Assembly: GCA_021463845.1 (NCBI GenBank)
Contig: JAJTXV010000002.1
Span: 290,962 to 354,961, forward strand
Reading direction: 5' to 3'
DNA length: 64,000 nucleotides
DNA from: Anaerolineales bacterium
GTDB taxonomy: Bacteria; Chloroflexota; Anaerolineae; Anaerolineales; UBA11579
Both the position numbers and the translations under genes were made by a program. Positions 39,601-41,591 of this stretch are shown one piece after another. The notes beneath the pieces were generated by a model. The model ran no database searches. It saw only the letters and a list, made by a program, of their open reading frames with translations, and was not told where the DNA came from. Positions within the stretch are counted from its first letter, which is position 1. Every line of letters starts with the position of its first letter.

Positions 39601-39674
39601 GGGCGCGTAGCTCAGCTGGTTAGAGCGTTGCGTTGACATCGCAAAGGTCGTAGGTTCGAGTCCTATCGCGCCCA
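39601..39674 (+). tRNA. tRNA-Val (anticodon GAC)
   Basis: A complete cloverleaf: acceptor GGGCGCG/CGCGCCC, D-arm GCTC/GAGC, anticodon stem TTGCG/CGCAA with loop TTGACAT (anticodon GAC), T-arm GTAGG/CCTAT with a TTCGAGT loop, discriminator A. CCA is not encoded. It reads GUC and GUU valine codons. Confidence 0.96.
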
Positions 39675-39726: not shown

Positions 39727-40506
39727 ATGCCGTTCATTGAGCTTGACGACATCCGGCTTTACTACGAGGAGCATGGCAAAGGCGATGCGATTATCTTTAC
39801 GCATGGCAACTCGTTGTTTCACGGCCAGTGGCAGCCACAGGTTGAGGAATTCTCCAAGACGCATCGGGTGATCGTGTGGGATGTGCGCGGCCACGGCAAG
39901 ACCGGCCTGCCGCCCGGCCCGCTCGACCCCGAATCCTTCTCGCGTGATCTAATCGGCCTGCTGGATGGGCTGAAGATCGATAAGGCCGTGCTGTGCGGGC
40001 TCTCGATGGGTGGGCACATCTCGCTGCAGGCGGCAGTGCATTATCCCGACAGGGTGCGGGCGCTGGTGCTGATCGGCACACCGTTCACCAACAGCTTCAA
40101 CTGGTTCGAGACGCTGACGGTGCCGATCAATCTGCTGAGCGTGCGCCTGATGCCGCTGGAGCTGACCGGCAAACTGACCGCAGACGCAGTTTCCAAGATC
40201 ACGCCATCCACGCGCGGCATCGTGGAGCAAGGCTTTGGCTTCATGACCCATGATCAATTCCTGCGGCAGTGGGCCGGCAATCTGCGCCTGGAAACCAAGC
40301 ACGAACTGCACAAGGTGCAATGCCCCACCCTGATTCTGCACGGCGAGAAGGATGCGCTGGTGGCGCGCCAGCAGAAGGCGCTGGCGGCTGGTATCGCCGG
40401 GGCTGAGTTTTACAGTATCGCCGGTGCCGGACACCTGACCAACCTGGATAACCCACAGGCGGTGAACCAGCGCATGCGCGGGTTCTTGCAGAAGTTGAAG
40501 GCCTGA
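39727..40506 (+). CDS. Alpha/beta-fold hydrolase
   Basis: A 259-residue alpha/beta hydrolase related to 3-oxoadipate enol-lactonase and haloperoxidase-like esterases. The nucleophile is in GLSMGGH (about 96-102), the acid in HGEKDALV and the histidine in GAGHLTNLDNP (near 237-247). The N-terminal FIELDDIRLYYEEHGKG is the usual start of the family. A strong GGGAGG RBS precedes ATG. Substrate unknown. The adjacent tRNA and phenylalanine hydroxylase leader have their own promoters. Confidence 0.88.
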   Translation: MPFIELDDIRLYYEEHGKGDAIIFTHGNSLFHGQWQPQVEEFSKTHRVIVWDVRGHGKTGLPPGPLDPESFSRDLIGLLDGLKIDKAVLCGLSMGGHISLQAAVHYPDRVRALVLIGTPFTNSFNWFETLTVPINLLSVRLMPLELTGKLTADAVSKITPSTRGIVEQGFGFMTHDQFLRQWAGNLRLETKHELHKVQCPTLILHGEKDALVARQQKALAAGIAGAEFYSIAGAGHLTNLDNPQAVNQRMRGFLQKLKA

Positions 40507-40535
40507 TTGACCTGAGATTGCTGTTCTGCTAGAAT
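40507..40535 (+). promoter_or_regulatory. Promoter of the tyrosine leader/phhA unit
   Basis: TTGACC (40507-40512), a 17-bp spacer and TAGAAT (40530-40535). The predicted start near 40542 is only about 4 nt upstream of the leader-peptide ATG (40546). Confidence 0.75.
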
Positions 40536-40545
40536 GCCTCAACGC

Positions 40546-40635
40546 ATGGCTAAGCCCGTAACTTCTGCTTATACCTATCTGTATTACGCCGAGACCACTC
40601 CGGCTGCTTTGCCCTGCGCTCTGTTGGAAGACTAG
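40546..40635 (+). CDS. Tyrosine-rich leader peptide (attenuator of phhA)
   Basis: A 29-residue reading frame beginning MAKPVTSAYTYLYYAETT. Tyrosine codons occur at 40570, 40576, 40582 and 40585, four within six codons. It ends at TAG 40633-40635, 22 nt before an intrinsic terminator, which itself precedes the gene of an enzyme that makes tyrosine. This is the layout of a ribosome-mediated attenuator. The 40618-40627 segment (GCTCTGTTGG) can pair, with two bulges, with the left arm of the terminator (40663-40670), so it could be the antiterminator. A ribosome stalled at the Tyr codons leaves that segment free; one reaching the stop covers it. Confidence 0.75.
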   Translation: MAKPVTSAYTYLYYAETTPAALPCALLED

Positions 40636-40657
40636 TTCGAAACCCACTCGTAATCCC

Positions 40658-40694
40658 AAAGACCACAGGCTGGCGGCCTGTGGTCTTTTTGTTT
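40658..40694 (+). terminator. Attenuator terminator between leader peptide and phhA
   Basis: A perfect 13-bp stem AAAGACCACAGGC / GCCTGTGGTCTTT with loop TGGCG, then a TTTTT-G-TTT tail. It lies inside the 5' leader, just before the phhA RBS. Confidence 0.92.
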
Positions 40695-40707
40695 GCCTGG
40701 AGGAAAG

Positions 40708-41439
40708 ATGGCATTGCCACGAAGTGAAGTTGTATCCGTGCGCCGGCGTGAAATGGCGTTCAGTGAGGAGCAGCACGCGGTATGGCGCGACTTGTATGCG
40801 CGCCAGTTGCCGAATGTGCAGCAGTTCGCCTGCCGCGAGTACCTGGAGGGGTTTGACATTCTGGGGCTGCCAGCTGAGCAGATCCCTCAGTTGAAGGACC
40901 TCAACGCGGTCATTACGCCGCGCACCGGCTGGAGCACGGTGCGCACGCAGGTGCGTTATTCGGATGCGGTGCCGTGGTACCACCACTTCGCCAAGCGCCA
41001 GTTCCTGATCACGGACTATATGCGCGGGCGGCACGAGATGGACTTTACGCCCGAGCCGGATATGTTCCACGACATCTTCGGCCATCTGCCGTTCATGGCG
41101 CTGCCTGAGTACACCGCGCTGCAAGACCTGTTTGCCCCAGCCTTTCTCAGGGCAACGGATGCGCAGCGCGAGACTATCAAGCGCCTGGCCTGGTTCAGCA
41201 CCGAGTTCGGGCTGATCCGTGAGGATGGCCAGCTCAAGATCTTTGGGGCCGGCCTGATCTCCTCGTTTGGCGAGATCCAGCATGTGATGGCTGGCAAGAC
41301 GCCGGTGCGGCCGTTCACGGTGGCGAACGTGATCGGCTACGAGAAGGCGATCTACACGTTCAATGAGGTGTTGTTCGTGATCGAGTCGATCGAGGCGTTG
41401 AAGGTCGAGCTGGCGGCGTACTTTGATACGCTGGGGTGA
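40708..41439 (+). CDS. phhA: Phenylalanine 4-hydroxylase (biopterin-dependent aromatic amino acid hydroxylase)
   Basis: A 243-residue catalytic-domain-only enzyme. The iron-binding triad is His121 and His126 in EPDMFHDIFGHLP plus Glu166 in WFSTEFGL, with the same 40-residue His-Glu spacing as in mammalian PAH. TGWSTVRTQ (73-81) belongs to the pterin/substrate site. It hydroxylates phenylalanine to tyrosine using tetrahydropterin and O2. ATG 40708 follows GGAGG (40699-40703); an upstream TTG at 40693 sits in the terminator tail. The Tyr-codon leader suggests that it works for tyrosine supply rather than phenylalanine breakdown. No pterin dehydratase gene is adjacent. Confidence 0.93.
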   Translation: MALPRSEVVSVRRREMAFSEEQHAVWRDLYARQLPNVQQFACREYLEGFDILGLPAEQIPQLKDLNAVITPRTGWSTVRTQVRYSDAVPWYHHFAKRQFLITDYMRGRHEMDFTPEPDMFHDIFGHLPFMALPEYTALQDLFAPAFLRATDAQRETIKRLAWFSTEFGLIREDGQLKIFGAGLISSFGEIQHVMAGKTPVRPFTVANVIGYEKAIYTFNEVLFVIESIEALKVELAAYFDTLG

Positions 41440-41591
41440 CTGACCGTTGAGAGGGCTAAAGTTATTATTGCGCGGCGCGCGGTGGGGGTCAAAATATATT
41501 AGTAACAACTTTGCCGCATTGGTCAGCATGCCGCGGTTGTAACAGGGTTGATGGCTTGCGAGGCGGACTGGTGCCTTAAATCAAGCTGTTG

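Follow-up and report, generated by a model that had tools for sequence, protein, structure and literature searches.

A probable tyrosine-specific leader-peptide attenuator upstream of the phenylalanine hydroxylase gene phhA in Anaerolineales

In the window, the whole 64,000-nucleotide stretch of Anaerolineales DNA analysed here, the gene for phenylalanine 4-hydroxylase (phhA) is preceded by a promoter, a short tyrosine-rich open reading frame (ORF) and an intrinsic terminator. The features, in window coordinates, are:

40507-40535, plus strand: sigma-70-type promoter TTGACC-17-TAGAAT, matching 10/12 consensus positions, with an extended -10 TG
40546-40635, plus strand: leader peptide ORF of 29 codons, MAKPVTSAYTYLYYAETTPAALPCALLED followed by a stop (ATG 40546, TAG 40633-40635), with homologous leaders at L002-L010
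40547-40559, plus strand: putative, weakly supported region 1, which could pair with region 2 (anti-antiterminator)
40570-40587, plus strand: Tyr codon cluster YTYLYY (Tyr codons starting at 40570, 40576, 40582 and 40585), the proposed stall site at low Tyr-tRNA
40588-40604, plus strand: short hairpin GCCGAG..CCGGC, immediately 3' of the Tyr run
40602-40622, plus strand: region 2, the antiterminator 5' arm GGCTGCTTTGCCCTGCGCTCT, within the leader ORF
40633-40635, plus strand: leader stop codon, with the terminator starting 22 nt downstream
40658-40688, plus strand: intrinsic terminator of 14 bp (left arm 40658-40671, 3-nt loop 40672-40674, right arm 40675-40688), then a T-rich tail
40699-40703, plus strand: Shine-Dalgarno sequence GGAGG of phhA
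40708-41439, plus strand: phhA, phenylalanine 4-hydroxylase, 243 aa (PF00351, E 7.6e-43)

An earlier sequence-only reading of this DNA had named the promoter, the 29-codon frame with four Tyr codons within six and a stop, and the ribosome binding site of phhA, all of which are present as listed. The terminator and T tail that it described also stand, although its perfect 13-bp stem measures 14 bp, made of 13 Watson-Crick pairs and one U-G. Translation of the window in six frames gives 127,966 hexapeptides, of which YTYLYY is the sole stretch with at least four Tyr in six codons. An alternative in-frame ATG at 40534 falls on the -10 box and is unlikely to be the leader start. This box ends 10 nt 5' of the leader ATG at the window locus, and 8-10 nt separate the two in 10/10 bacterial phhA leaders (the -35 is poor in the L007 and L008 leaders), so that a leaderless or nearly leaderless mRNA is expected.

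Upstream of the attenuator the window holds a tRNA gene (39601-39674) and an alpha/beta hydrolase gene (39727-40506), whereas in the relatives at L002, L005 and L006 a tRNA-like sequence is found near the attenuator and the hydrolase gene is missing between them; the neighbourhood thus varies around a constant set of promoter, leader and phhA. On the minus strand, an ORF of 526 codons (39949-41529) spans both the entire attenuator and phhA in antisense orientation; it is probably a composition-driven artefact.

phhA is present in 13/24 genomes of the host's family, and ten phhA loci (L001-L010), from three genera, share the promoter, the Tyr-rich leader, the stop and the terminator; a further family locus, L013, starts at a contig end and so falls outside the comparison. 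The genomes are seemingly mostly metagenome assemblies (MAG in the record titles), and the named records among them are of Anaerolineales and other Chloroflexi (lineage Chloroflexota, Anaerolineae). Examples of the other leader peptides are MVKHALYVYAYYYAETTPAALPCVLLED, MAFQNGSRDYAYYYAEPHLAVLSCLE, MSNVNVSYTYSYYYANGKKKRLVLICVEIED and MAKRNPRNLYRPYYYAVTHTAGFGLPDEGNTP. A comparison of homologous upstream regions had been proposed as a check, and in it the Tyr codons, stop and terminator are kept, with TAT and TAC exchanged and the flanking residues changed. Some of the peptide is nevertheless conserved beyond Tyr within a genus (AETTPAALPC, a stretch with 32 synonymous against 25 non-synonymous codon differences), as might be expected of a nascent-peptide arrest sensor similar to TnaC, in which free tyrosine or another ligand, and not a lack of Tyr-tRNA, would stall the ribosome via the peptide. 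Between genera, however, conservation is limited to the Tyr run and the Ala after it and the remainder diverges, the C-terminal parts of the leaders vary in a way that fits RNA pairing needs, and the leaders found upstream of tyrS (see below) have hardly anything in common except Tyr codons, which makes a sensor of this type quite improbable.

At the other phhA loci examined in the family, class and phylum, including 40 loci from a phylum search that partly overlaps the class search, no convincing Tyr leader was seen, with the exception of the archaeal locus L021. A family-wide search for the codon pattern YxYxYYA returned the phhA leaders of G000 and G012, plus single scattered matches. At L011 (positions 1359-1500, genome G023) an ORF without Tyr codons, MISNFIFPCTPVPVLNHRFS followed by a stop, and a terminator lie before phhA; this genome has tyrA and pheA, and the ORF is perhaps a leader of other specificity.

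The left arm and loop of the terminator double as the 3' arm of an antiterminator. When the RNA was folded with a ribosome at the Tyr codons and the right arm still unmade, 40602-40622 paired with the terminator left arm and loop, whereas with a ribosome at the leader stop the terminator alone remained. Antiterminator and terminator exclude each other, and the antiterminator is conserved and co-varies between lineages, in which the region 2:3 pairing takes the forms GGCUGCU:GGCGGCC, GGCUGCU:AGCAGCC, GGCCGUUU:AAACGGCC, GGCUGGUG:CACCAGUC and GGCCGG:CCGGCC. With the arms placed in register by hand from predicted duplexes, a placement that favours the structure, 95.9% of cells were paired, against 14-71% in slid controls; on a MAFFT alignment the values were 90.8% and 31-50%. 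One in-register position shows C-G, U-A and G-C, and since its co-varying partner is a base of the terminator loop, this covariation is unexplained by the terminator itself. Covariation of the antiterminator is based on few independent lineages, and on the MAFFT alignment 72/500 shuffles equalled the count of double-changed pairs and 32/500 the covariation score. For the terminator, 93.5% of cells were paired across leaders and four pairs had changed on both sides. Both alternate stems co-vary, the outcome sought by a further check that the sequence-only reading had put forward. That reading had also anticipated an alternative pairing with the terminator left arm, which holds, but had assigned it to 40618-40627; the pairing of this segment (CUGUUGG:CCACAG) is lost in L005 and L007-L008, and the conserved arm is 40602-40622.

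Region 2 lies within coding sequence, and its pairing was also compared with shuffles of codon order. The region 2:3 duplex was matched by 8, 26, 1 and 3 of 500 shuffles in four lineages, giving a combined p of 3e-5. Support for a region 1:2 helix differs among the leaders: it is strong in L007, L008 and L010 (8/500 shuffles as good for L007 and 22/500 for L010), and is matched by many codon shuffles in L001-L006 and L009 (86/500 for the window locus and 197/500 for L009). As the terminator exceeds the antiterminator in stability, antitermination would have to be kinetic.

A covariance model built from the ten phhA leaders was applied to 396 class genomes. Many of its matches cover model positions 91-128 only and are bare terminators. 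The best two outside the family, L107 and L108, are full-length Tyr leaders that precede tyrosine genes. At L107 (42.6 bits), the leader MTSQPLQNDFAYYYYYYGPFTGRLLHAGWRPR lies 5' of aroH (chorismate mutase) and tyrA (prephenate dehydrogenase), and from its sequence we read it as a tyrosine attenuator for the prephenate route; the locus (L107:46-1604, G098 contig 50) shows a leader ORF with six consecutive Tyr codons and a terminator. At L108 (1471-2991; 39.8 bits), the leader MLGLENVTRSAYVYYYAAPQSGERPLCAARDAM lies 5' of tyrS.

In a survey of tyrS, short ORFs with at least three Tyr in six codons were found in 22/89 upstream regions, 14 of them with at least four, compared with two and none in the reverse-strand control; nine other amino acids gave 0-1 at the stricter level (at least four in six). 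Upstream regions with a Tyr-rich leader include L136, L137, L141, L147, L148, L151, L155-L161, L164, L167, L168, L171, L175, L179, L181 and L186; one candidate, L143, may be coding sequence. An automatic terminator test was passed by 18/22 of the tyrS leaders and by 8/67 leaderless upstream regions, with the terminators usually 24-33 nt past the leader stop, and at three more, L137, L158 and L171, a terminator is visible by eye. In several of these leaders a promoter-like sequence stops a few nt short of the ATG. Support for region 2:3 pairing is weaker in the tyrS leaders (combined p 0.005), which occur in several Anaerolineae families. Lone terminators are common between genes, as the many bare-terminator matches of the model illustrate, and the phhA leader might accordingly be a chance ORF or an unrelated small protein next to a terminator that belongs to an upstream unit or fixes a constant low level of phhA. 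Such a coincidence is very hard to reconcile with a Tyr cluster that is unique in the window, that is conserved with promoter and terminator in 10/10 leaders, and whose specificity is seen again on tyrS and aroH-tyrA; we consider it highly unlikely.

The gene content of the genomes bears on the role of the enzyme. TyrA (PF02153) and PheA (PF00800) were not found in any of the ten leader-bearing genomes, and are likewise missing from all searched genomes of those genera, including near-complete ones (1-3 contigs), while the same profiles scored in 14/14 control genomes. Chorismate synthase is missing from 10/11 genomes of the window's genus, the exception being G009 (76% complete); it is absent in G015 and present in the leader-bearing G018. 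In contrast, G002 and G023, family members with phhA and no leader, carry TyrA and PheA, and tyrA is present in 18/18 class genomes checked that have phhA and no leader. Because the contrast clusters phylogenetically, within one family, it is consistent with the proposal without amounting to ten independent events. Because tyrA and pheA are absent in the leader-bearing genomes and tyrA occurs in leaderless ones, PhhA is most likely the sole route to tyrosine in the former, presumably from imported phenylalanine. The sequence-only reading had assigned the enzyme to biosynthesis, and this is most likely right, since neither prephenate dehydrogenase nor prephenate dehydratase is present in the host or in the relatives that carry the leader.

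A single archaeal sequence provides a lead outside the bacteria. In GW2011_AR15 (L021, CP010425.1), phhA is 60% identical to the window phhA, and an ORF with five Tyr in six codons, MHKPAAQSKYSYYYYC followed by a stop, starts at 2873 in a leaderless position (L021:2873-3009), with a TATA-like AAAAGTTTAAATA roughly 25-30 nt 5' of it and phhA at about 3004. It is the sole such Tyr cluster within the 6.7 kb of L021. No clear terminator was seen between the Tyr ORF and phhA, TyrA was not above cut-off in this genome, and four distant phhA relatives in its class have no Tyr leader. In predicted folds with a ribosome at the last Tyr or the stop, the phhA Shine-Dalgarno sequence was sequestered (pairing of about 0.8-0.97 across GGAGG), and with a ribosome at the first Tyr it was more open (about 0.5-0.9). 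Tentatively, these folds might point to leader-peptide translational attenuation of phhA, in which case Tyr leader-peptide control would cross domains, a possibility that we regard as doubtful.

For the bacterial locus, we propose that phhA is very probably controlled by a tyrosine-specific, ribosome-mediated transcription attenuator of the trp/his/phe kind. The computational basis is the anatomy of the locus, its conservation, the compensatory alternative pairing, the absence of tyrA and pheA, and the recurrence on tyrS and aroH-tyrA. As read from the sequence, the locus has an upstream ORF with clustered codons and an intrinsic terminator between leader stop and gene, and the leader codon fits the regulated gene, Tyr being paired with phhA (likely the sole Tyr source), tyrS and tyrA. 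The near-leaderless mRNA would begin with the leader ORF. When Tyr-tRNA(Tyr) is abundant, the ribosome would pass the Tyr cluster, reach the stop and cover region 2, and with region 2 masked the terminator would end transcription. When Tyr-tRNA is scarce, the ribosome would stall at YTYLYY and leave region 2 free to pair with the terminator left arm and loop, so that RNA polymerase would continue into phhA and PhhA would then make tyrosine from imported phenylalanine. We infer the stalling and the coupling, as well as the import of phenylalanine and the cellular regulatory response.

Leader-peptide attenuators have been described for Trp, His, Phe, Leu, Ile/Val and Thr genes, and tyrosine genes are known under T-boxes or repressors; in E. 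coli, TyrR controls the tyrosine genes, and Phe leaders control pheA/pheST. Similar to E. coli pheA/pheST, and to the trp, his, phe and leu family in general, the phhA locus combines a short ORF in which codons for the regulated amino acid are clustered, an antiterminator opposed to a terminator, and a pathway or aminoacyl-tRNA synthetase gene downstream. It differs in that the codon is Tyr, the gene encodes an aromatic hydroxylase (or is tyrS or aroH-tyrA), the leader mRNA is nearly leaderless, and region 2 lies inside the leader ORF. Classical attenuators outside the proteobacteria, some on synthetase genes, are found in Actinobacteria, such as those of trpS and leuS in Streptomyces (PMC1262725). 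Phe, His and Thr attenuators are listed in the same survey, which describes no RNA-based regulation of Tyr or Phe operons within Actinobacteria; for Tyr it gives T-boxes only, in other species (PMC1262725). Leader-peptide attenuators also occur on some Cys genes (PMC8632094), and the uORFC-13-1 motif on aroF of Acholeplasma likewise couples an upstream ORF and a terminator to an aromatic amino acid gene, but has Phe codons, another gene and another phylum (PMC8632094).

The nearest functional precedent is the T-box on phenylalanine-4-hydroxylase in the Bacillus cereus group (PMC2494555). There, too, transcription of a phenylalanine hydroxylase gene is under tRNA-sensing antitermination, the same physiological idea, although the T-box binds tRNA directly, has no leader peptide and is a different RNA. 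Control of this enzyme through tRNA sensing is thus not without precedent, albeit by a different mechanism. As T-boxes control this gene and, in Firmicutes, tyrS (PMC2494555), a T-box or other riboswitch could in principle sense uncharged tRNA-Tyr or tyrosine directly in the window as well, with the ORF incidental. There is, however, little space between promoter and terminator, a simple pattern search of the tyrS upstream regions returned no T-box-like motif, and the Rfam scan of the window gave one tRNA only, with no T-box or amino acid leader family above gathering score and no match in the attenuator region; direct sensing by such an RNA is extremely improbable.

The tyrosine leader-peptide attenuator appears to work by the classical mechanism with a tyrosine specificity that is, as far as checked, undescribed. 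The literature searched, with most subscription papers outside its reach, contained no tyrosine attenuator or tyrosine leader peptide, in line with the earlier statement that none is known on an aromatic hydroxylase gene. A tyrosine attenuator on phhA, aroH-tyrA and tyrS in Anaerolineae would add one more amino acid to the attenuator list. It would also allow a codon-based reading of metabolic role, in which a leader rich in codons for the product marks a biosynthetic hydroxylase, and it offers an idea of how bacteria that lack the prephenate route to tyrosine may regulate their single remaining source.
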